Shown here: piece by piece, positions 2,979 to 19,770 of the stretch | Numbering within the stretch: the first letter of the stretch is position 1 | Layout: every line of letters begins with the position of its first letter | Virus record (IMG/VR): IMGVR_UViG_3300034418_012342 | Location: 1-21,125 of that record | DNA length: 21,125 nucleotides | Strand: one strand, 5' to 3' | Source of the DNA: a virus | Notes under the pieces: model-generated | Databases searched by the model: none | What the model saw: only the letters and a program-made list of their open reading frames with translations | Told to the model about the DNA's origin: nothing | Translations under genes and position numbers: made by a program

Positions 2979-3320
2979 ATGTTAAAATCCAAAACCCTGC
3001 TAATCATCCCAGTCCTTCTATTGGTTTTATTAGCATTCACAAGCCAAGACAGCACCAAGTACCAGTACATAGATGTACAGATCAACCAAAAGCTACTCTC
3101 TCAAAAGGTAAATATCGTCATCAACGAAGGCAAGAAGCTGCCATGGATGAGAGATAACAGACTCAAAGATGAGAATGGGAAACCAGTAGTTTTTGAGAAT
3201 GAAGTAAACGCCTTGAACAAATTAGGTGAAGATGGATGGGAGCTTAAACAGAGTTATTCTGTTGCGGTGAGTAATTCAATGGCTGTAATTCATCATATCA
3301 TGATGAGAGAAGTTAAATAG
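2979..3320 (+). CDS. small secreted DUF4177-like protein
   Basis: 113 residues. Residues 1-21 form a classical signal peptide (MLKSK, then a Leu/Ile/Val-rich core, then AFTSQ), without a lipobox cysteine, so export to the periplasm is expected. The mature part has the pattern of DUF4177-type proteins: 'KYQYIDVQI' strand near 28-36, and 'VNALNKLGEDGWELKQSYSV' near 80-100, the region with the diagnostic helix and GWEL. The biochemical role of that family is not established. The gene has its own leader and is bracketed by two almost identical terminator hairpins, so it is expressed apart from the head operon; this is the arrangement of a phage moron (accessory gene expressed from the prophage). 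Confidence 0.6.
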   Translation: MLKSKTLLIIPVLLLVLLAFTSQDSTKYQYIDVQINQKLLSQKVNIVINEGKKLPWMRDNRLKDENGKPVVFENEVNALNKLGEDGWELKQSYSVAVSNSMAVIHHIMMREVK

Positions 3321-3337
3321 AATCTGGCTTCTTGTAA

Positions 3338-3377
3338 AAGGCCAGGCAGGGGAAATCCTGTCTGGCCTTGACTGTTT
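3338..3377 (+). terminator. terminator-like hairpin after the DUF4177-like gene
   Basis: Stem 3338-3350 with 3357-3369: 12 Watson-Crick pairs and one G-T pair, loop GGAAAT, then GACTGTTT. The T tract is short, so termination may be partial. It resembles the hairpin at 2887-2920 in arm and tail sequence. Confidence 0.6.
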
Positions 3378-3462
3378 AAAATAGCTGATATCAACTGCAT
3401 CAGTTTCAAATATTCCCTAAAGCATTTTAAGTTCATTTTGTTTTCTGTTTTTTTAAAAAATC

Positions 3463-3732
3463 CTAAAACGTATCTACGTCACACTTCTCTCCCCAGCCAG
3501 CATACCGCCGACTCAGGACCTGCACCTGGTCCAGATAATGTACCGGATCCGTAATCGACCGGAGTGCAAGGATATCCTGCATCACCCAGTAGAGGACACT
3601 AGACTTATAGGCTTTCAGATAACTGTCATGTAGAGCATCGTGCTCCTGTTGTTGCTGATCAATTAGATTGATCAATTCCTCTCTGGAGAGAGAGTCCAGG
3701 GGAAGTTGGTGATTCAGTGATTTGTTTAGCAT
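3463..3732 (-). CDS. small hydrophilic protein on the minus strand, unknown
   Basis: 89 residues (MLNKSLNHQLPLDSLSREELINLIDQQQ...). The 'LSREELINLIDQQQQEHDALHDSYLKAYKS' stretch reads as a real amphipathic helix, and the C-terminal half is rich in Trp/Tyr (YWVMQDILALRS, RRYAGWGEKCDVDTF). No family recognised. It is the only gene-like frame opposing the left operon. Its start codon (3732-3730) sits at the edge of a 22-bp perfect inverted repeat, so translation could be gated by RNA structure. The upstream in-frame codon before a TAG allows no longer ATG start. A competing 64-residue frame (3853-3659) overlaps its first third; only one of them may be real. Confidence 0.4.
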   Translation of the reverse strand: MLNKSLNHQLPLDSLSREELINLIDQQQQEHDALHDSYLKAYKSSVLYWVMQDILALRSITDPVHYLDQVQVLSRRYAGWGEKCDVDTF

Positions 3733-3853
3733 AACAAATGATTTTATAGTGGCCTGGCTGACCCGTTGCTAAACAAATCACTGAATCAGGATTGTTGGAT
3801 ACACCATTACAATGTATCCACGGGGGCCAAGCCATAATAGTTTTAGAAGACAT
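3659..3853 (-). CDS. possible 64-aa leader or small protein overlapping the 89-aa frame
   Basis: Begins ATGTCTTCTAAAACT with AGGA eight bases before, a better ribosome site than that of the overlapping 89-aa frame. The product (MSSKTIMAWPPWIHCNGV...) has three Cys and two Trp in the first 50 residues and a Pro/Ser-rich end. It runs through the inverted-repeat arms, so ribosomes translating it would open the hairpin that covers the start of the 89-aa frame. That would make it a leader ORF. It may equally be chance. Confidence 0.2.
   Translation of the reverse strand: MSSKTIMAWPPWIHCNGVSNNPDSVICLATGQPGHYKIICYAKQITESPTSPGLSLQRGIDQSN
3710..3788. repeat. 22-bp perfect inverted repeat
   Basis: Arm 3710-3731 and arm 3767-3788 are perfect reverse complements over 22 bp with a 35-base spacer. 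The spacer contains GTGGCCTGGCTGACCC on the plus strand. There is no T tract after either arm, so it is not an ordinary terminator. Confidence 0.9.
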
Positions 3854-3883
3854 AAATCCTAATTCTGTTTTGTTTGTTTAGCA
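3767..3883. repeat. 117-base imperfect hairpin sharing an arm with the 22-bp repeat
   Basis: The ends are perfect complements (TGCTAAACAAA at 3767-3777; TTTGTTTAGCA at 3873-3883). Further in, TGAATCAGGATT (3782-3793) pairs with AATCCTAATTC (3856-3866) with a single wobble, and at the centre GGATACA (3797-3803) pairs with TGTATCC (3813-3819). The 3767-3788 arm is thus able to pair with either neighbour. Confidence 0.65.
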
Positions 3884-4414
3884 CCCGAAATCTAGCAAAA
3901 AACTTTCACGATTAGATATAAAATGTGTACAGGTCTGCGAAAATATATTTGATCACTATTTTTAAAAAAAGTCACATTTTCCCAAAAAAGCATGTAAGTA
4001 ATTGATTTATAGTTATTTATACCTTGGGAAAAGTTTTAAAAAACTCCCAAATAACTCCCAAAATTCTCCCAACTTTTCCCAAGCCCAAAAAGTTTTCCCA
4101 AAAATGTGGCTTTTTTAAGGAGTTTTGGGAGTTTTCCCAAAGATGTAACTATCTGTAAATCAGAATATTAAACCCCTTATTTTGGGGGTTTTGGGAAAAT
4201 GGGAAAAAACACCCCTCAAAATAGGTAGGGGTCCCTCAGAACAGAATAGCTGGTTACTTTTTGGTCATTTCACCTTCTCTTTGACTTTGATTCTCAAAAA
4301 GATGTAATGTTTTTAGCCATGTTGCTCAAAAAGCAACCTGAATACTAAATAAATTGGATTGGTTTTTGTAGATTCCAATTTGGGGGACAATCAGAATACA
4401 TACTAATTCAGTCT
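3854..4414. other. 560-base non-coding region: repeat array plus two leader hairpins
   Basis: No frame of 60 codons on either strand. It holds A/T-rich DNA, the CCCAA/TTGGG array (3977-4206, separate entry), an IR ACCCCT/AGGGGT near 4211-4231, a 6-bp hairpin GTTGCT-CAAAA-AGCAAC at 4321-4337, and an 8-bp hairpin AAATTGGA (4351-4358) / TCCAATTT (4374-4381) just before the next gene. No convincing TTTG/TAnnTTTG promoter was found. Best readings are a replication origin or a regulatory region for the 4415 gene group. Confidence 0.5.
3977..4206. repeat. iteron-like array of CCCAA / TTGGG motifs
   Basis: Plus-strand CCCAA occurs at about 3981, 4046, 4057, 4068, 4078, 4084, 4097 and 4136. The reverse motif TTGGG occurs near 4024, 4125, 4183 and 4191. 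CTCCCAA starts at 4044, 4055 and 4066, exactly 11 bp apart, and TTCCCAA follows at 4076, so four copies lie on one helix face. TTTGGGAGTTTTCCCAAA near 4124-4141 is a short palindrome. Helically phased short repeats beside AT-rich DNA are typical of phage or plasmid origins, centromere-like sites, or cooperative regulator sites. Confidence 0.7.
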
Positions 4415-5128
4415 ATGCAGACCAAGCTAAGAGTCTCTGTGGCTCCTTATGTTCACGCCTATCTTGCTACTAGGTACGGACCTTCTCCCTACGACCTCAC
4501 TCATTCCAACCGAAATGACTTAAGGATGGCATTTTCATATATGTGGATGGGAGTGGAATTTTGGCCACGCATCAAACACGGTCACTATGTAGTCATCGAC
4601 CTGGGCAATGATCACACTTTACTTCGTGCCTACCAATACAATAAACCATTTCTAAAAGCTGGCTACTTTTTTCAAGGCGAATTTATGAGAGCTATGAGAG
4701 GATATGTCAAGGCACAGGAGGCGCTTGCAAACTCTCTTAATCTTGGGCCCAGTGCCTGGAATAAAAAGTGGGCCATTGATCAGTTCTTAAAAGATCACAA
4801 TGTGGATCCTAGTTCATATGACTTTTTCAGCGCCTATAGACAGCACAATCGTATGGAACAGGCTGATTTTTCAGAGCTTGAAAAAAAATGCTCCACAAAA
4901 TTTAATTTTAGGCCATCTGACAATCAATACTTTAAACTCTGTTCTGTTAGCTTTGGAAAAAAAATTAGAATCATTTTTTGGTGCTACTCTAGGGAACAGG
5001 AAGACATGAGGAGATGTGAATACCATATCCCTGTGAAATTAGTTAGGTCAGGTGACTGGCTTTCCTACGCCAAGACTTCCATGCACATCATCAATGACTT
5101 TCTCCTAAAAGGCTACACAGTATCATGA
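4415..5128 (+). CDS. unknown 237-aa protein, first of a four-gene coupled group
   Basis: No family recognised with confidence. The N-terminus (MQTKLRVSVAPYVHAYLATRYGPSPYDL) resembles the opening of an uncharacterised protein I recall from Bacteroidota mobile elements, where a basic strand is followed by 'V..YL..KYG'. No signal peptide or membrane segment. It is Tyr/Phe/Trp-rich and basic overall. It lies directly after the repeat array and is coupled (ATGA) to the membrane protein downstream. A DNA-binding or replication-initiation role would suit the position but no HTH or catalytic motif is visible. The start is the first ATG in frame, preceded by an A/T-rich leader with hairpins and no Shine-Dalgarno. 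Confidence 0.6.
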   Translation: MQTKLRVSVAPYVHAYLATRYGPSPYDLTHSNRNDLRMAFSYMWMGVEFWPRIKHGHYVVIDLGNDHTLLRAYQYNKPFLKAGYFFQGEFMRAMRGYVKAQEALANSLNLGPSAWNKKWAIDQFLKDHNVDPSSYDFFSAYRQHNRMEQADFSELEKKCSTKFNFRPSDNQYFKLCSVSFGKKIRIIFWCYSREQEDMRRCEYHIPVKLVRSGDWLSYAKTSMHIINDFLLKGYTVS

Positions 5129-9266: not shown

Positions 9267-10192
9267 TGGCTCTCAATAAAGGCACAGTTGCCAACATCCA
9301 GGATTATTACCTGACTCACCGTGAGGGATTCTACACGAAATCCTTCTCTCGTCCAATGATGAGTAATTTCATCAATGTGACAGCTACAGATAAGCTGATG
9401 CTTCAAAGCGCCAGCTCTACCAGTGTTCTCCAGTCTCGTCAGGCAGGACACCACAAAAAAGGCTCTGTTACACTCAACGCACGTCAGCTTGACATGAGAG
9501 GCGTAAAGGCGGACCAGACCTTTGACACAGTCAAATTCAGCGAGGAAGCATATCACGCCTACCTTTTCGCTGGCAATCTCGACCCAAAAGATTTTCCTTT
9601 TCAGGCATTCGTGATCGAAATGATTATGAACCAGATGTATGAGGACTTTGCGCTAGAGGTGCTATGGAATGGCGTACATTTAGGGGCTATCTCCGGTGCT
9701 CCTAACAATCCTTCAGACACTGCTGACGGATACCGCGAATTACTTCGCCAGGATATTGTAGCAGGATCAGTGACCCCGTACCTGACAGGACAATTCACAA
9801 ACGCAAATGCGCTGGATGGTATCCGTCAATTCGTGAAAGATCAGTTGGATACAGCAAGCAAGAGAGCTCGCTTACATTACATCTACTGCTCACAGGACAC
9901 GGTTGACGCTTATCAGGAAAATTACGAGGACGCAATTGGTGCCTATCGCCATGCAGATGAAGCCTACAACCTCACCCGTGTACATGGAACAAATGCGATG
10001 CTGGTTCCGCAGGATGGTATTTCAGGAAGTGGCCTCTTCATGTGTCGCCCGGACAACCTCTTTGTAGGTTTTGACGGACCTCCGGTAATTAATCTCGACT
10101 ATGAGAGCCGTGAGCTGAAAGTAGAAGTCGATTGGAAGTATGGAATGCAGTACGCTTCAACAGCAGAGCTGTATGTCAATGAATGGATCTAA
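9266..10192 (+). CDS. major capsid protein, HK97-like
   Basis: 308 residues, translated from the protease stop (TAATG). The N-terminus has a basic, mobile region; 'FNWRD'-type motifs are absent but the order strand-helix-strand expected for an HK97 fold is consistent, with 'FSEEAYHAYLFAGNLDPKDFPFQAFVIEMIMNQMYEDFALEVLWNG' as the long helix region and 'ALDGIRQFVKDQL...RLHYIYCSQDTVDAYQENYED' then 'GLFMCRPDNLFVGFDGPPVINLDYESRELKVEVDWKYGMQYASTAELYVNEW' at the C-terminus, the usual ending of Bacteroidota capsid proteins. Position right after the protease-scaffold gene supports the call more than any single motif. There is no obvious long delta domain, in keeping with the fused scaffold upstream. 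Confidence 0.85.
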   Translation: MALNKGTVANIQDYYLTHREGFYTKSFSRPMMSNFINVTATDKLMLQSASSTSVLQSRQAGHHKKGSVTLNARQLDMRGVKADQTFDTVKFSEEAYHAYLFAGNLDPKDFPFQAFVIEMIMNQMYEDFALEVLWNGVHLGAISGAPNNPSDTADGYRELLRQDIVAGSVTPYLTGQFTNANALDGIRQFVKDQLDTASKRARLHYIYCSQDTVDAYQENYEDAIGAYRHADEAYNLTRVHGTNAMLVPQDGISGSGLFMCRPDNLFVGFDGPPVINLDYESRELKVEVDWKYGMQYASTAELYVNEWI

Positions 10193-10211
10193 ACCTTAAT
10201 CAAGAGAAAAA

Positions 10212-12803: not shown

Positions 12804-13001
12804 TTGGTGATGCAATTGTTCCTACAAGTCTCTTAAAATACTGATTTTAAGCTTTGCATAAGTATCTGAAAAACAAACGCTTCCCCTAAAGAGGAAGCGT
12901 TTACACGGTGTAAAGTGGGCCCACCCGGCCTTTTAAATATTGTCATATCCATCTGGTAATCAGGCAAATAAAACAAATCGACCTAATTTTGGTGATGCAA
13001 T
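12804..13001. repeat. 13-bp direct repeat TTGGTGATGCAAT, two copies
   Basis: Copies at 12804-12816 and 12989-13001, 185 bp apart. With flanks, 22 of 27 bases agree (TAAT before, CCTAC after). The first abuts the integrase start codon, the second overlaps the end of the HTH gene. Confidence 0.85.
12870..12902 (-). terminator. terminator of the HTH gene (minus strand)
   Basis: Perfect 10-bp stem AAACGCTTCC (12875-12884) / GGAAGCGTTT (12893-12902), loop of eight bases. On the minus strand the stem is followed by G and five T (12873-12869), so it ends transcription from the 13417 gene before the integrase, which therefore needs its own promoter. Confidence 0.75.
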
Positions 13002-13006
13002 CCCAC

Positions 13007-13417
13007 CTACTTCTTTTTGCCATTCCCCCCACCTAGCTGCTCTTTTAGCCTCTCATTTTCGTATGTAAGGCGCTGATTTTCAAGCCTTAATGCTCCTATT
13101 TCCTTTGTCAAATCAATGATTTTGTACAGGTCATTTTGGGAAGCATTTGAACTGTCAGGCTTGCCTTTTGATATGCTTTTTTTCGTGTTTACAAAATCCA
13201 ATTCCTCAATCTGTATGTGTACTTTATAGCCATATAAAGTGGCAACTTTTGACACTTCAGAAAATAGTAGCCGGTTTGACCTCGCTCTTTTTAAGAATGA
13301 AGGATAACTGATGCCTAGTGCCCTGGATGGCACTTTAGTGATATCAATTTTGTTGTTTTTTTTCATTTTATCGTAAAAGACTGAGGGTAAGGTGGATAGC
13401 TCGTATTCGTTACTCAT
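13007..13417 (-). CDS. HTH protein with C-terminal coiled coil, candidate lysogeny repressor
   Basis: 136 residues. Residues about 24-70 (DITKVPSRALGISYPSFLKRARSNRLLFSEVSKVATLYGYKVHIQ) have the XRE-like pattern: a 'GISYPSFLKR' recognition region and 'LLFSEVSKVATLYGYKVHI', the usual 'f...eLekiA..LG..l.i' ending. Residues 95-128 (LYKIIDLTKEIGALRLENQRLTYENERLKEQL) are a heptad coiled coil, expected to dimerise the protein. No peptidase domain follows, so SOS autocleavage like lambda CI is not expected. It is divergent from the early operon across a 135-base region with several TTTGATA sites, the layout of a phage switch. The name as repressor is inference from position and HTH. Confidence 0.7.
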   Translation of the reverse strand: MSNEYELSTLPSVFYDKMKKNNKIDITKVPSRALGISYPSFLKRARSNRLLFSEVSKVATLYGYKVHIQIEELDFVNTKKSISKGKPDSSNASQNDLYKIIDLTKEIGALRLENQRLTYENERLKEQLGGGNGKKK

Positions 13418-13531
13418 TTGATATTATTTAAATTGATTTTGATATTATCAAATTTGCATTTGATAACTACTATTTATACTATTGCAGTATGGTAGTCATA
13501 CAAATACGGTATCGACCTTCATAATATCAAA
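13417..13531. promoter_or_regulatory. operator cluster in the divergent switch region
   Basis: TTTGATATTATCAAA at 13438-13452 is a perfect 7+1+7 palindrome. Further TTTGATA elements lie at 13417-13423 and 13459-13465, and an inverted TATCAAA at 13525-13531. The central palindrome directly abuts the -33 box of the rightward promoter and the 13459 half-site lies in its spacer, a position where a bound dimer would block polymerase. A second small IR, GTATG-GTAGT-CATAC (13487-13501), lies just downstream of the -7 box. Confidence 0.7.
13453..13484 (+). promoter_or_regulatory. rightward early promoter (Bacteroidota type)
   Basis: TTTG at 13453-13456, 20 bases, then TACTATTG at 13477-13484, one base off TAnnTTTG. 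Spacing fits the Bacteroidota consensus. It would drive 13553 and the early genes. Confidence 0.55.
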
Positions 13532-13552
13532 AATTATATCTCAAAAATTGAC

Positions 13553-13768
13553 ATGTTGCCAATTATTACACCCCAAAAAATTGAGTTCTGGATGAGCAAG
13601 TTGACAGCTCATCAAAAACGGACTGTAAAAGGGCGAATGATGTCTGAATTAAGGTATGGATGGAGTACGCTTCATGAAAGATTGAAAGATGGATTTCCAG
13701 AAAAGGACCATTCCAAGCTCCGGAGCATATTCTCAGACTATCTTGTTATCACAAAAGACGCAGCCTAA
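13553..13768 (+). CDS. small early protein, first gene opposite the repressor
   Basis: 71 residues, basic, helical-looking (PQKIEFWMSKLTAHQKRTVKGRMMSELRYGWSTLHERLKDGFPEKDHSKLRSIFSDYLVI). The 'MMSELRYGWSTLHERLKDG' segment could be the start of an HTH, and the position opposite the repressor is that of cro-like genes. Not recognised as a named family. The ATG is the first after the switch region. Confidence 0.55.
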   Translation: MLPIITPQKIEFWMSKLTAHQKRTVKGRMMSELRYGWSTLHERLKDGFPEKDHSKLRSIFSDYLVITKDAA

Positions 13769-13785
13769 TTAAGAAATTTAAAAAT

Positions 13786-14230: not shown

Positions 14231-14480
14231 TCAAGAAGGCTACTCTAAAGTGTGTACTTACTCCAATGGCCTCCTTATACAAGGCGATCACGTCAACTTC
14301 CCAAAAGTTAAAGGAATTATTGTAGGAGGAATTGTTTTCGAAGGAAGAGACACCCACCGCCCACTATGGGACCCAGTCCGGGCAGAGCTAGAAGCCTACC
14401 AAGGAAGACCCTGGGAACAGATTCAGCATCTATATCATGGGCGCACAGTTTACGCGCTCTTGCTTATCAAAAAAGCCTAA
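14217..14480 (+). CDS. small early protein, unknown
   Basis: 87 residues (MLWPDQEGYSKVCTYSNGLLIQGDHVNFPKVKGIIVGGIVFEGRDTHRPLWDPVRAELEAYQGRPWEQIQHLYHGR...). Strand-rich first half, helical second half. Overlaps the preceding gene by 14 bases. A terminator-like hairpin follows. No family recognised. Confidence 0.5.
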   Translation: MLWPDQEGYSKVCTYSNGLLIQGDHVNFPKVKGIIVGGIVFEGRDTHRPLWDPVRAELEAYQGRPWEQIQHLYHGRTVYALLLIKKA

Positions 14481-14511
14481 CCCTTTTCGAATATTGTGAT
14501 TAATAGTGAAT

Positions 14512-14537
14512 TCCTGCCCTTAGGGGCAGGAGTTTTT
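14512..14537 (+). terminator. terminator within the early region
   Basis: TCCTGCCC (14512-14519) pairs with GGGCAGGA (14524-14531), loop TTAG, followed by GTTTTTG. Eight perfect base pairs. Transcription beyond it may need antitermination or another promoter. Confidence 0.7.
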
Positions 14538-14551
14538 GAAACCCCTACACG

Positions 14552-14908
14552 ATGAAAACTATTTCAAAACAAAGAAAAGCACCACTGCCCATCACTTATC
14601 TTCAAAAGAGAATCCTGCTGAAAGCAGGATTCTCAATTGTCATCTGCGACACCAGGTACAAATCAGTGACAATAGTCACTCCAAACGACACTGTAACCCT
14701 ACCCCAAGAAACAAAAGAGAATACCAGGCAGAGGGCCATGGTGTACACCTCTCCTAATATGGTTGTGTTTTTAGATGGGGTGATGTCAAGCCTTAGCATG
14801 GATCAGCTTAATCGCTCAGGAATAGTTGCTCGCGAGCATCCGGAGCGAAGCAGAATGATGGGAAGAAGCACATACATCATTGAGCAACAAATAACCCGTT
14901 CTTTTTAA
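14552..14908 (+). CDS. small early protein, unknown
   Basis: 118 residues, basic (MKTISKQRKAPLPITYLQKRILLKAGFSIVICDTRYKSVTIVTPND...). Begins with a basic segment then alternating strands; the end (EHPERSRMMGRSTYIIEQQITRSF) is basic. No family recognised. A second frame from 14536 (73 codons) covers part of it and is considered spurious because of its composition. It lies between two hairpins, upstream of the primase gene. Confidence 0.5.
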   Translation: MKTISKQRKAPLPITYLQKRILLKAGFSIVICDTRYKSVTIVTPNDTVTLPQETKENTRQRAMVYTSPNMVVFLDGVMSSLSMDQLNRSGIVAREHPERSRMMGRSTYIIEQQITRSF

Positions 14909-14925
14909 TTTTTCGATTTCCCCTA

Positions 14926-14949
14926 CCCCAAGGCCTGAGTGCCTTGGGG
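14926..14949 (+). terminator. perfect hairpin in front of the primase gene
   Basis: CCCCAAGGC (14926-14934) / GCCTTGGGG (14941-14949), nine perfect pairs, loop CTGAGT, then GATTTAAA. The T tract is poor. It lies 18 bases before the primase start, so it might attenuate or stabilise the primase transcript. Confidence 0.55.
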
Positions 14950-14966
14950 GATTTAAAGCAGAAGAA

Positions 14967-17900
14967 ATGCAAAAGATTCCTGAAAATATTATTGACGATT
15001 TATACAAGGTAGACTTGCTCAGTGTTGCTAAAGATATTCATCCTGGAGATTGGAACCAGAAAGGTGGTCAGTGGTGGGCCCTCTCTCCTTTTAAAACTGA
15101 AAACACTCCCTCCTTTACAGTTCATAACCGTAAGGGTTTCTATAAATGCCATGCAACCGGAAAAGGTGGTCGAGGCGCCATCAAGCTGGTACAAGATGTC
15201 AAAAAACTGAATTTTCCTGATGCTTGCAGATGGGTAGCCAAATTTGCTGGTATCACCATTCCTGCAGCTACTGAAGAGGACGCGGCAAAAGATAAAAAAA
15301 TACAAGCCGAGAAGGCAAAAGTGAAAAAGGCTGCTGCCTATTATGCCGAGTCAAAGTCAGAAAAACTCAGCGAGTTTATTGCGGAGAGAGGAATAAACGT
15401 TGAGACATCAAAGCTCTTTCAGATCGGATATGCTCCGGAGAATGACTTTTCAAAATTCAAAGGCAGAATCATCTTCCCTATCTGTGATCAGTTTGGCAAT
15501 CCCATTGCTTTTGGTGGCAGATCACTTTCAGATAATAAGGAAGAAGCAAAATACATCAACAGTACAGAGTCTGATCTGTATGACAAGTCAAAGACATTGT
15601 ATGCCTGGGATTTAGCGCGGGAATCAGCCTCAAATGCTGGCTATGCGCTATTGACTGAGGGATATATGGACACCATTATGTGTCATCAGCATGGATTCAC
15701 CATGACTGTGGCTTCATGTGGTACCGCCCTCACCCCCTACCAGGCAAAGAGTCTCGCATACGTGGTAGATGAGGTTGTAATCCTTCGTGATGGAGATCCG
15801 GCTGGCCAGCAGGCTACCTTGAGAGATATCAAGGTACTGTTGGCAGCTGGGATCCATCCGAGGGCATTTACACTCCCCAATGGCCAGGACCCTGATGACT
15901 ACCTTCAGAAGGAAGGCAAGGACGCCCTCCAAAAGCATATCAGTCATGCAAAATCATGGATTTCATTCCTGCAGGGTTACTACATAACCAATCATGGTCA
16001 GATCGATGAAGACACAGGCGAGATCATTGTTCCAATCAAGAAGCGTACTGAGCTGATGAAGATGGTCGTGGAATACATACAGACCATTCCTGATCAGATC
16101 ACACAGCAGGAGTACGCAAAGGAGGCCAGTACTATTTTGGGTATTGATATGAAGATCATGGCTAAAGAATTGGGATTCCAGTTGATTAAGGCCAATTCTG
16201 TGGCCATTGCCCGGAATGGATTCAGAAGAACATGGCAGGACTATCAAAATATTTGTGAGCTTTTTGGCTTGACTACTAATGATGATTTTTCCAAAAATGA
16301 CGCTGGTTTTATGAATATTGCTTACTATCAAATCGGTGGCAAGCCCTTTAAAATTAGAAGAAATCGTCAATCTATCGAGGCTGTCAGAAAAACCAACAGC
16401 TATGACCCTATCAATGCAGTCTACATCCATCCTTGCCTGAGACTTGAGAATACAGAAAAAGACTGGGGAAACCTGGTGCCACTGCCTATGGCAAAGGAAG
16501 AAGTCACCTATCAAAAGGATGGCTATCCCCTCCCTCTTTATCTTGTGCAGGATGAAATTACTGCCAGTATTTTAGTTGATTTTGGTATCCCTGCTATTGG
16601 CATGAATAATTTTATAGGCTTTGCTCGAAACAAAGGCCAGAAGGAACTTCATGCACAGTTAGATGCCACGGTTAAACATTACAACTTTAAGCACATTGTA
16701 TATGTGCTTCCAGGTGCAGCCTGGAGTTTGCCAGAGGCCAAAGATGCTGACTTATCCAGTGTTGGCATGAAGTTTTCAAAGGCATTGATCAGCTTTAATG
16801 TCACACTAAAAGACTTGGAGATATCTTCTTACTGTATGTCACAGAAGTTAGGGCATGGCCCGATGGATGAAGATCTGTGGATAGAGGATATTATTCAAAA
16901 AATTAGGGCAGAAGGGAAAGAGCCAAAGGATGAATTTTTGAAGCATTTTAAAGGACAAGAAAGTCCTTATGTTGATATTACCAACATTTCATACTCCAGG
17001 CCAGAAAAGTTACAGCAGTTTTTAAAGGTAGAGAACGCACAGGACTTTTTTGATTATTACGCAGATCAGCTAGGAGCTGAATTTCGATTCAATGGCAAGT
17101 TATATGAAGTAGATATCAAGTCTGGTGCTGTCAGCCTGAAGAAAGGCCAGCAAGATCCTGATGTCAAAAGTGAAAACGGTGCCTATTATTCACGTCAAAG
17201 AAATGGTGGATGGAAAGAGATATCCAATTTTACTTTGGAATGCCTCCTAGAAGTAAAGGCGCAGGAGTCTTTTAACCTATATAGGATCAAGTCCAGAGAT
17301 ACGGGAGTATCTCAGATAACGATTATTCCAGACAGAGAGTTCACCGATCGCACGAAGTTTATCAGCTGTATCAGACGGCAAAGAGGACTTAAAGCATGGT
17401 TTAAAGGAACCACCCAAGACTGTCTTGAGATTCAGGCCACCTCTATCCAGTACGCTCCGGAGGCTGAGCCTCTTGAGCATACCCTGGGATGGTATAAGCC
17501 ATACCGATACCAAGGGGCAAAACAAGGCTTTTATGTGATGGGGAATGGGCTGATAAATGAAGAAGGCAACTTTATTCCAGTAGATGAGCAAGGCCTTGTT
17601 AATTATGATGGAGAAACATACTTTCTCCCAGCCCATTCCAATATTAGGACAGCTGACAATCACAAGTCGAAGTATGAAAGGGAAATCAACTTTAGCTACT
17701 CCCCCTCTGACATCAACTTCAAAGACTGGCTGTATCATTTTCGTCTGACACACGGAGAGAATGCTGACACCGCTTTCTTCTTCTTTTTAATGGCCTTATA
17801 CAGGGACATTATCCTGGAGACTTATGATGAAAGGATCCCACACCTGTTCCTATTGGGGCCAAAAAACGCAGGAAAAGGAACCCTGCAGGAATCACTTTGC

Positions 17901-19112
17901 GCTCCATTTGGCAAGCTCAAAGTATTGGGCCTGAATGAAGGCCCCACATCCAGCTCATACAGATACCATTTTGCTCAGTACCGAAATGCTTTTGCTGTAT
18001 TCAATGAGTGCAATCCTTCATCTATTCCTGGATGGATGGTCACAGGATTTAAAGGAGCTTATGACAACCAGACAAGAGCAAGGATGAAAGGCCCAAACAC
18101 AAAGGAGATTGATTATGGTGAAGTCAACTCTGCAGTATTGATCATGGGTCAGGAGCCTACAATTTATCAGCAGGAAGCCATCTCTACTCGCTGCATTGTA
18201 TTGCACTGTAATAAGGAAAAGTACACAGCGGATGAGTCCAAAAGGTGGGATGAATTGAAGTCAAAGCATAAAGCCGGTCTTGGTCATTACTTAGGAGATT
18301 TTATGAGATTGCGTCCCATCATCAAAGAACACTTTTCCGACACCGCAACATATCTGCACAAAGCACTCAAAGAAGAGATAGATAGATTGTTTGGGACTGG
18401 AGCATCTTACTCCATTGATGGTAGATTGTTTTACAACTGGTCTGTAGCATTAAGTCCTGTATGGATATTGACCACAAAAGGGAAACTCTCCTATCCGCTG
18501 TCAAATAAAGACATATTAGAATTTGCAGCACGTCAAATAAAAAACCAGGCTGAGCAAATGATATCTAAAGGCGTACTGGAGATGTTTTGGGACTTTTTAT
18601 CTGCTTATTATTGGGATCGTAGTTATGAGATCTATGACCACCTAGTATGGCATGACAAAAAAAAGGGTCATTTAAACATAAAAATCACAGGGTTATACAT
18701 CAAATTTGAACAGTATATCAAAAAAGTGGCTCCTAATATAGAGAACGTTACACGAACAGACTTGACAAGAAGATTCAAATCCCATCCTGCATTCATAGGC
18801 TATAGGAAATCCGGTATTTGGTTTGGATACAGAAAAGATACACAAGGTAATTATGTTAGAAAGACACAAGCAGTGCTCTCCCCTAGCGGTGATAAAATTA
18901 CTGTTCCAGGTGAAGGGATCCGAAATTCGCTTACCAGTGGATATATATTCGATGCATCTAAATTGAATCTTGAACTACGTCAGCCAGTATTTCCTTGGGA
19001 TGATGTCAATGGCTTGGAGCCTGATGCTGCGATGGCACCGGCTCCATCATCCCCTACTCCTGATATAAATGGATCTATAGTATCTCATACAGAAGAAGCA
19101 GTCCCATTTTAG
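14967..19112 (+). CDS. fused DnaG-like primase and P-loop helicase
   Basis: 1381 residues. Residues 1-85 match the CHC2 zinc-binding domain, but three of four ligands are gone: 'CPFH' is S40-P-F-K43 and 'CFGC' is C61-H-A-T64. A TOPRIM catalytic domain follows: E231-G-Y-M-D235, 'SCGTALT' near 250, and R274-D-G-D277-P-A-G, then LPNGQDPDDYL, all intact. Residues about 520-620 resemble a second TOPRIM with dead motifs. The helicase part has a Walker A-like G964-P-K-N-A-G-K-G-T972 (adenylate-kinase style), a Walker B-like F1012-N-E1014 and a candidate arginine finger R1075 (ISTRC). A winged-helix-like end is likely around 1190-1290. It should prime and unwind DNA at the element's own origin. The length is unusual for a phage primase-helicase. 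Start: first ATG, weak ribosome site (GCAGAAGAA). Confidence 0.8.
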   Translation: MQKIPENIIDDLYKVDLLSVAKDIHPGDWNQKGGQWWALSPFKTENTPSFTVHNRKGFYKCHATGKGGRGAIKLVQDVKKLNFPDACRWVAKFAGITIPAATEEDAAKDKKIQAEKAKVKKAAAYYAESKSEKLSEFIAERGINVETSKLFQIGYAPENDFSKFKGRIIFPICDQFGNPIAFGGRSLSDNKEEAKYINSTESDLYDKSKTLYAWDLARESASNAGYALLTEGYMDTIMCHQHGFTMTVASCGTALTPYQAKSLAYVVDEVVILRDGDPAGQQATLRDIKVLLAAGIHPRAFTLPNGQDPDDYLQKEGKDALQKHISHAKSWISFLQGYYITNHGQIDEDTGEIIVPIKKRTELMKMVVEYIQTIPDQITQQEYAKEASTILGIDMKIMAKELGFQLIKANSVAIARNGFRRTWQDYQNICELFGLTTNDDFSKNDAGFMNIAYYQIGGKPFKIRRNRQSIEAVRKTNSYDPINAVYIHPCLRLENTEKDWGNLVPLPMAKEEVTYQKDGYPLPLYLVQDEITASILVDFGIPAIGMNNFIGFARNKGQKELHAQLDATVKHYNFKHIVYVLPGAAWSLPEAKDADLSSVGMKFSKALISFNVTLKDLEISSYCMSQKLGHGPMDEDLWIEDIIQKIRAEGKEPKDEFLKHFKGQESPYVDITNISYSRPEKLQQFLKVENAQDFFDYYADQLGAEFRFNGKLYEVDIKSGAVSLKKGQQDPDVKSENGAYYSRQRNGGWKEISNFTLECLLEVKAQESFNLYRIKSRDTGVSQITIIPDREFTDRTKFISCIRRQRGLKAWFKGTTQDCLEIQATSIQYAPEAEPLEHTLGWYKPYRYQGAKQGFYVMGNGLINEEGNFIPVDEQGLVNYDGETYFLPAHSNIRTADNHKSKYEREINFSYSPSDINFKDWLYHFRLTHGENADTAFFFFLMALYRDIILETYDERIPHLFLLGPKNAGKGTLQESLCAPFGKLKVLGLNEGPTSSSYRYHFAQYRNAFAVFNECNPSSIPGWMVTGFKGAYDNQTRARMKGPNTKEIDYGEVNSAVLIMGQEPTIYQQEAISTRCIVLHCNKEKYTADESKRWDELKSKHKAGLGHYLGDFMRLRPIIKEHFSDTATYLHKALKEEIDRLFGTGASYSIDGRLFYNWSVALSPVWILTTKGKLSYPLSNKDILEFAARQIKNQAEQMISKGVLEMFWDFLSAYYWDRSYEIYDHLVWHDKKKGHLNIKITGLYIKFEQYIKKVAPNIENVTRTDLTRRFKSHPAFIGYRKSGIWFGYRKDTQGNYVRKTQAVLSPSGDKITVPGEGIRNSLTSGYIFDASKLNLELRQPVFPWDDVNGLEPDAAMAPAPSSPTPDINGSIVSHTEEAVPF

Positions 19113-19128
19113 GGTCTTCTAATAATAC

Positions 19129-19197
19129 AAAAGGGGGACAAGTTCTTTAAATGGGTAAACATTTTTCACCGGGTTAATAATGCAGGTCCCCTTTTTT
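19129..19197 (+). terminator. long-loop terminator after the primase gene
   Basis: AAAAGGGGGAC (19129-19139) pairs with GTCCCC-TTTT (19186-19195), one G bulged, and six T run 19192-19197. The loop is about 46 bases. Ends the primase transcript. Confidence 0.6.
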
Positions 19198-19216
19198 AAC
19201 CACAACACCAAAAAAA

Positions 19217-19339
19217 ATGATAAACATCAAAAACAAGAAACTGCGGAGATTGATTGCTGTAGCACTTAGTCCTCCAGGCTTAATGAGCATAATCGTGGCG
19301 ATCGTCTCCATCATCGTGATCTGGAACTATTATAATTAA
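19217..19339 (+). CDS. 40-aa single-pass membrane peptide
   Basis: Sequence opens MINIKNKKLRRLIAVALSPP, positively charged, then a hydrophobic helix from about 22 to 36 (LMSIIVAIVSIIVIW), ending NYYN. An A-rich leader precedes the ATG. The positive N-terminus predicts it inside. Too short for family assignment; could be a holin-like or regulatory membrane peptide. Confidence 0.45.
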   Translation: MINIKNKKLRRLIAVALSPPGLMSIIVAIVSIIVIWNYYN

Positions 19340-19364
19340 TTATAACCATCTAAATCGTAAAAAA

Positions 19365-19496
19365 ATGACTAAAAGAAAACTGATTATTCTAATCACATTG
19401 CTTTTTACACTTTCAGTATCCTCATGTACAACTCCATATCCAAACACCTACGATAATGGTGTATCTGTAAAGCTTGAAAAGCAACAGCCTGAATAG
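19365..19496 (+). CDS. 43-aa putative lipoprotein
   Basis: Classical lipoprotein signal: MTKRKLIILITLLFTLSVSS followed by Cys21 (lipobox SVSSC), then a short hydrophilic tail (TTPYPNTYDNGVSVKLEKQQPE). Mature part is only 23 residues. Small lipoproteins like this occur as outer-membrane spanins in phages, but the tail is very short and nothing confirms that. Lies 26 bases after the 40-aa peptide, so they are probably one unit. Confidence 0.5.
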   Translation: MTKRKLIILITLLFTLSVSSCTTPYPNTYDNGVSVKLEKQQPE

Positions 19497-19522
19497 ACCG
19501 ATAAATCGTTCTTTTAAATCTA

Positions 19523-19588
19523 ATGTTAAACTGGGTGCAGACAGCATCTGGAATTACATGGGAAATTTGGAAAGAAGCTGGGAGGTAG
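19523..19588 (+). CDS. possible 21-aa micropeptide
   Basis: MLNWVQTASGITWEIWKEAGR. The stop codon lies in the loop of the hairpin at 19576-19602. Three Trp in 21 residues is notable. It may be chance. Confidence 0.2.
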   Translation: MLNWVQTASGITWEIWKEAGR

Positions 19589-19602
19589 TATGCCTCCCAG
19601 CT
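19576..19602 (+). terminator. perfect 10-bp hairpin
   Basis: AGCTGGGAGG (19576-19585) / CCTCCCAGCT (19593-19602), loop TAGTATG. No T tract follows (ATTAAATAAAG), so it may be a weak terminator or an RNA-stability element between the lipoprotein gene and the 50-aa frame. Confidence 0.45.
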
Positions 19603-19617
19603 ATTAAATAAAGTAAC

Positions 19618-19770
19618 ATGAAATTAATCACACCATTTTTTATACACACAATCAACAGGATTGACAAATACCTGAGACATCATACTCCCACTGGCTGGGG
19701 GTATCGGATCACCTTTTATAAACTTGACAAATCAGAAGAAATTGTCGAGAAATCTTTTAAAAAATTATAA
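19618..19770 (+). CDS. 50-aa small protein
   Basis: MKLITPFFIHTINRIDKYLRHHTPTGWGYRITFYKLDKSEEIVEKSFKKL. Basic, one mixed helix and strands; no membrane segment. Stops ten bases before the ATG of the HTH gene. A longer frame (19724-20080, TTG start) would overlap it; the layout argues for this 50-aa gene followed by the ATG start at 19781. Confidence 0.45.
   Translation: MKLITPFFIHTINRIDKYLRHHTPTGWGYRITFYKLDKSEEIVEKSFKKL

Follow-up and report, generated by a model that had tools for sequence, protein, structure and literature searches.

The window analysed here, the whole stretch of 21,125 nucleotides, is a 21-kb record that its gene content assigns to a tailed temperate phage. A portal-like protein, whose similarity to phage portals is weak, is encoded together with an adaptor (DUF6712), a protease, a tyrosine integrase of the Arm-DNA-bind_5 type and a large primase-helicase. 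The last of these, identified with Pfam and PHROGs and with relatives in Bacteroidota phages, is a DnaG-type primase with a CHC2 zinc finger, a Toprim domain and a distinct C-terminal part, and is the only replication enzyme recognised in the window and in its 40-kb relative (L002, described below). A 113-aa gene with a weak DUF4177 match (2979–3320) is missing from that place in the relative. Within the run of structural genes, a 682-bp gap between an 89-aa minus-strand ORF ending at 3732 and a 237-aa ORF starting at 4415 holds a dense repeat array, with the following features (window coordinates unless marked L002).

3977–4206, no strand: whole iteron array, 12 CCCAA/TTGGG; top 7-mer cluster of the locus, −435 to −225 of the 237-aa ORF
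3977–3985, plus: TTTTCCCAA site 1; same in the relative (L002 4572–4580)
3986–4023, no strand: AT-rich segment (79% AT) between sites 1 and 2; candidate unwinding element
4024–4032, minus: TTTTCCCAA site 2 (plus strand reads TTGGGAAAA); left arm of a 13-bp inverted repeat; TGTGAAAA in the relative (L002 4620–4627)
4044–4050, plus: CTCCCAA phased site a; spacing 11/11/10; gap-free alignment with the relative
4055–4061, plus: CTCCCAA phased site b; kept in the relative (L002 4651–4657)
4066–4072, plus: CTCCCAA phased site c
4074–4082, plus: TTTTCCCAA site 3; right arm of the inverted repeat (4071–4083); TTTTCACA in the relative (L002 4670–4677)
4093–4101, plus: TTTTCCCAA site 4
4125–4131, minus: inverted CTCCCAA (plus strand reads TTGGGAG)
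4132–4140, plus: TTTTCCCAA site 5; TTTTCACA in the relative (L002 4729–4736)
4141–4178, no strand: second AT-rich segment (71% AT), without sites
4191–4199, minus: TTTTCCCAA site 6
4415–5128, plus: 237-aa ORF, in the slot of gene X (see below) by synteny; candidate iteron-binding initiator
14967–19112, plus: primase-helicase

The repeated CCCAA/TTGGG motif reported in the initial annotation is real: 12 pentamers fall within 3981–4195 (starts at 3981, 4024(−), 4046, 4057, 4068, 4078, 4084, 4097, 4125(−), 4136, 4182(−) and 4191(−)), compared with 2.5 ± 1.3 expected from dinucleotide shuffles of the array's 230 bp (maximum 7 in 2000 shuffles) and 3 in the next-densest 230 bp of the window. Two motifs are nested in the array, TTTTCCCAA and CTCCCAA, and all six copies of TTTTCCCAA in the window, on both strands, lie inside it. 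The helical phasing that had also been noted holds for four neighbouring sites spaced 11, 11 and 10 bp apart (CTCCCAA at 4044, 4055 and 4066, TTCCCAA at 4076) but is not significant over the full set of 12 (Rayleigh p = 0.07). A perfect inverted repeat of 13 bp (4023–4035/4071–4083) is made up of site 4024(−) and site 4074(+). The array stretch contains no Rfam hit or tRNA at curated thresholds, no ORF of at least 60 aa, no clear promoter and no host DnaA box (TTWTNCACA), and simple sigma-70 promoter and terminator scans of 3300–4500 returned nothing informative.

Beside the array lies a structured element on the minus strand (3710–3890; L002 4290–4490), in which segment 3767–3796 is complementary both to 3850–3883 and to 3710–3731, where the 89-aa ORF has its start codon. 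The pairings of the 3767–3796 element are maintained with different sequence in the relative. Its plan recalls the antisense leaders of phage P4 CI or P1 C4; the Rfam C4 antisense RNA model had no match at the element.

Array conservation in a single close relative

The only close relative is an IMG/VR contig of 40,337 bp, collinear with the window at ~75–90% DNA identity and probably nearly complete, as both contig ends lie inside a collagen-like repeat gene. Near-identical DNA or protein is common to the two at 12860–13770, 14300–15000 and 18990–19760 (background 75–83% identity), which on sequence grounds appears to be a sign of recent exchange. The relative's array occupies the same place (L002 4556–4803), retains the 11/11/10 spacing of the phased sites and keeps the inverted repeat able to pair. 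Several TTTTCCCAA sites, on both strands, are replaced by TTTTCACA(A/C), and all seven matches to TTTTC[AC]CA[AC] in the whole 40.3-kb record fall in the array. Such parallel CCC-to-CAC replacements, affecting several sites and both strands, are the pattern expected if the sites follow one binding protein, since the sites change in the same direction. An identification of the relative's TTTTCACA sites as DnaA boxes was dropped: their counterparts in the window read TTTTCCCAA, and a change of specificity is not to be expected of a conserved host protein.

Repeat arrays and gene X in Bacteroidota phages

As neither the 237-aa ORF nor the portal has close genome relatives (a search of GTDB genomes with the portal protein found none), sampling was widened to phages sharing the portal, integrase and primase, and an unbiased scan for the most clustered 7-mer was run on these more distant phages. 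Each phage scanned has one dominant array, scoring 8.4–22 compared with ≤7.3 in shuffles. The motif differs in most of them (TCGGACA, GTTGAGA, GATTACA, AGTTCCA, GTTACAA, CCTACAA and TCCAACA); each lineage carries a motif of its own, 7–9 bp long. In BT-TP2, Leef and the Porphyromonas phages, the gene after the array encodes related proteins of ~160 aa, here called X. A search with four X proteins yielded 57 viral loci, and the strongest repeat cluster within each ~10-kb locus sits just upstream of X in 51 of 65 loci (36 of the 45 non-redundant ones). The best cluster falls within 800 bp upstream of X in 36/45 non-redundant loci and in 4.25/45 shuffled loci; 32 of the clusters score at least 7.5, a value never reached in shuffled loci. 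In related temperate Bacteroidota siphophages, these arrays precede X at a distance of ~450–35 bp, with the upstream array weak or absent at some X loci. The window array, at −435 to −225 of the 237-aa ORF, occupies the same slot and, judging from these sequence comparisons, is one case of a family of repeat arrays that a broad range of Bacteroidota phages carry, one per genome. We found no description of the array or of gene X in these phages in open-access papers.

Other repeats and genes were observed around these loci. In locus L066, CCTCAGC is repeated very densely, with 17 copies in 250 bp, at 9968–10208, about 5 kb downstream of X. BT-TP2 has a second repeat cluster, AGGCATA/GCCTACA, between its integrase and repressor genes (PQ571279 43950–44171), possibly its attP or an operator. 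In Leef and Ingeline, a second, mutually related tyrosine recombinase gene directly precedes the array (NC_062750 28136–28999; NC_062749 21703–22494).

Many relatives share a layout in which two to three tandem 8-bp iterons on one strand are followed first by an AT-rich stretch, then by a central cluster whose spacings are near 8–11 and 18–21 bp, and finally by two to three tandem 8-bp iterons on the other strand. The same layout is found in Ingeline, laban6-1 and a Microcystis phage, where the array does not adjoin X. Across 45 loci, AT content peaks at 74% between −350 and −300, a relative place comparable to that of segment 3986–4023 in the window. The Bacteroidota promoter core TAnnTTTG is 4.7-fold enriched upstream of X and in one group is fixed at about −72 (−70 to −74), followed by inverted iterons and then the X start; inverted iterons between promoter and X ORF occur in relatives such as L058, L059, L065 and L020 and are not evident in the window. 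Of the shared layout, the window array has the two-sided arrangement and the AT-rich segments; it is regarded as a divergent member of the family because the tandem 8-bp copies and a clear promoter are missing. Comparison of related loci, proposed in the initial annotation as a check on the conservation of the motif and its spacing, gave a positive answer in modified form: layout and position are kept, while the motif itself changes between lineages. GC-skew extremes lie near arrays marginally more often than expected by chance (combined p = 0.047).

The primase gene is linked to the same loci. In about a dozen loci its 3′ end and X are 570–850 bp apart and flank the array, the primase coming first; the array adjoins the primase gene in laban6-1 and BT-TP2; and in a group of eight loci (L073–L080) X lies 320 bp before the primase, with a strong array elsewhere, between the portal and TerL genes, in the three whole contigs sampled. 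The remark that the array is far from the primase is therefore correct for the window (10.8 kb) but not typical of the family. As the parts trade neighbours yet stay together, we interpret primase, array and X as one module, and it is the primase that makes this a replication module.

No match to X was found in Pfam or PHROGs. An AlphaFold model from 39 sequences is confident (pLDDT 91.9); Foldseek found no PDB fold match, no sequence match in the PDB was detectable, and in a viral library only Leef gp39, itself X by sequence, matches the model well. The 237-aa ORF lies between the iteron array and the protease-capsid run; protein searches found no relative in GTDB genomes, phages or plasmids and one in viral contigs. 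Its similarity to the X-family profile (BT-TP2 gp8/Leef gp39 type) is weak (HMM E = 1.9), with an hhalign match (p = 0.016) confined to the N-terminal 19–21 residues, and its match to the X profile is better than that of 99.8% of its shuffles. The AlphaFold model of the 237-aa ORF, from two sequences, is poor (pLDDT 46) and was used for element order only. In this low-confidence model, the order of secondary-structure elements in the first 150 residues is that of X at nearly the same positions (237-aa ORF/X: E4-8/E3-6, H10-21/H10-21, H33-45/H35-43, E58-62/E59-62, H85-107/H80-107, H117-127/H114-124 and H137-149/H132-161). Position, profile and model together suggest that the 237-aa ORF is probably a divergent X, although homology is not proven. 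X would probably be the binder of the iterons; as the 237-aa ORF holds the gene-X slot, the earlier suggestion of array binding by its product fits.

A candidate replication origin and its alternatives

The computational analysis establishes that the array exists and is exclusive, that its position and layout are conserved, that its motif turns over between lineages and that it is linked to X and the primase. As the array is usually next to gene X and the primase, or linked to them through relatives, its most likely role is as the start of phage DNA replication. We consider that the array probably serves a temperate siphophage of Bacteroidota as its iteron-type replication origin, to which a phage initiator, most likely X, would bind. 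Points against it are the position of the window array in the run of structural genes, 10.8 kb from the primase, the portal–TerL position in the three sampled relatives, the marginal GC-skew association, the weak or absent arrays at some X loci and the lack of a PDB fold match for X. The initial annotation had offered an origin or a partition site: the origin half gains from the conserved layout with divergent motifs, the AT-rich flanks, the single array per genome and the linkage to primase and X, while the partition half is not supported, as no ParA or ParB is encoded in the window or the 40-kb relative.

Several other roles were weighed. The array may act as a multi-site operator or enhancer for the promoter of X and the protease-capsid operon, a late-gene switch with no direct role in replication. 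This would suit the fact that array and X usually head an X-Y-protease-capsid run and that many arrays contain a Bacteroidota promoter flanked by iterons, but we consider it unlikely: the array lies kilobases from X and the protease-capsid genes in Ingeline, laban6-1, the Microcystis phage and the three sampled L073–L080 phages, the window array has no clear promoter, and 6–13 sites over 200–350 bp are many for one promoter. A role as a packaging (pac/cos) site, with the small terminase or some other packaging factor as the binder, is quite improbable. Most relatives' arrays are far from terminase genes and tied to X or the primase, even though those of the three sampled contigs lie between portal and TerL genes and the inverted tandem repeats at both ends recall P1 pac. 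In the 40-kb relative, inspection revealed a separate HTH-like candidate TerS gene just upstream of a TerL-like gene. The array of Leef, for which Cos 3′ ends have been predicted (PMC8776804), is at 29.1–29.4 kb of 37.5 kb, ~8 kb from the record ends, which also argues against packaging if the record was opened at cos.

An RNA element such as a hairpin or terminator, with the repeats as a by-product, would account for a stretch that folds better than its shuffles (z = −4.1, and −7.0 in the relative, with DNA parameters) and for the inverted-repeat pairing kept in the relative. It is very improbable, as protein sites explain the lineage-specific motifs, the sites on both strands and the 8-bp tandem copies, and no credible Rfam match was found. 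Phased iterons can act as centromeres, and 8-bp tandem repeats recall the sites of ribbon-helix-helix proteins; a centromere-like partition site (parS/parC) is nevertheless scarcely credible, because ParA (PF13614) and ParB (PF02195) are absent from the window and the 40-kb relative in searches that were positive in control genomes. In addition, the integrases of these phages allow them to persist as prophages. The case for an attP with arm-type sites for the tyrosine integrase is that ~230 bp of direct and inverted short sites recall lambda attP and that an Arm-DNA-bind_5 integrase is present. We regard it as extremely improbable, since homologous arrays lie inside prophages: in the records of Porphyromonas prophages, for which bounding repeats were used to curate the boundaries (PMC10367356), they are found 9–11 kb into the element and not at its end. 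In the window, the integrase gene is 7.3 kb away.

Under the origin interpretation, the X product (here that of the 237-aa ORF at 4415) would bind the TTTTCCCAA/CTCCCAA sites cooperatively, and the loaded array would strain and open the neighbouring AT-rich DNA at 3986–4023 and/or 4141–4178. The primase-helicase (14967–19112), a likely functional partner, would then be recruited to the opened DNA, where copying would start. X would in addition reduce its own expression, in the manner of RepE of plasmid F; this autoregulation is proposed because in many relatives the outermost inverted iterons separate the X promoter from the start codon. More tentatively, X may represent a new class of initiator with an unmatched fold, 7–9-bp iterons and a specificity that changed repeatedly, in which case array, X and primase-helicase would form an undescribed origin system of many temperate siphophages of Bacteroidota.

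If the origin interpretation is right, the arrays mark a likely replication origin across a large group of phages and prophages of Bacteroidota, with human gut and Porphyromonas examples among them, and a candidate binder is named; simply scanning the DNA upstream of gene X would then locate origins. The arrays would also offer a natural set of protein-DNA specificities that change in concert (TCCTACA, TCCAACA, GTAACAA, TACCACA, GATTACA, TTTTCACA, TTTTCCCAA and others) and a starting point for replicons in Bacteroidota, a phylum with few genetic tools.

Comparison with known replication origins

In satellite phage P4, the alpha protein, a primase-helicase, acts at short iterons (ori1/crr) distant from its gene. 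The window likewise combines a phage primase-helicase with short iterons at a distance from its gene, but its primase is of the DnaG type with a distinct C-terminal part and there is one array, whereas P4 has two. The lambda ori, associated with the O protein, has phage iterons next to AT-rich DNA, as here; the array described here differs in lying outside the initiator gene, in its shorter iterons and in a different protein.

The plan matches that of plasmid F oriS/RepE and other iteron plasmid origins, which share clustered iterons, AT-rich DNA and, here as a candidate, an initiator gene just downstream (PMC13028717, PMC4980987). In plasmid F, an AT-rich stretch and iterons are followed by repE, with inverted repeats between promoter and ORF (PMC13028717), and inverted copies between promoter and start codon are found in relatives of the window array. 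Cooperative Rep binding depends on helical spacing (PMC4980987). Unlike F-type origins, the iterons here are 7–9 bp (8-bp tandem units) rather than 17–22 bp, the array has no DnaA box and X has no detectable PDB sequence or fold match. An iteron origin does not strictly need host DnaA boxes. Bacillus phage SPP1, with oriL/oriR and G38P, has a discrete origin and a phage-encoded origin-binding protein, together with a second origin 12 kb away (PMC3485210). The phages described here resemble it in their probable discrete origin and candidate origin-binding protein of their own, and differ from it in carrying one dominant array per genome.
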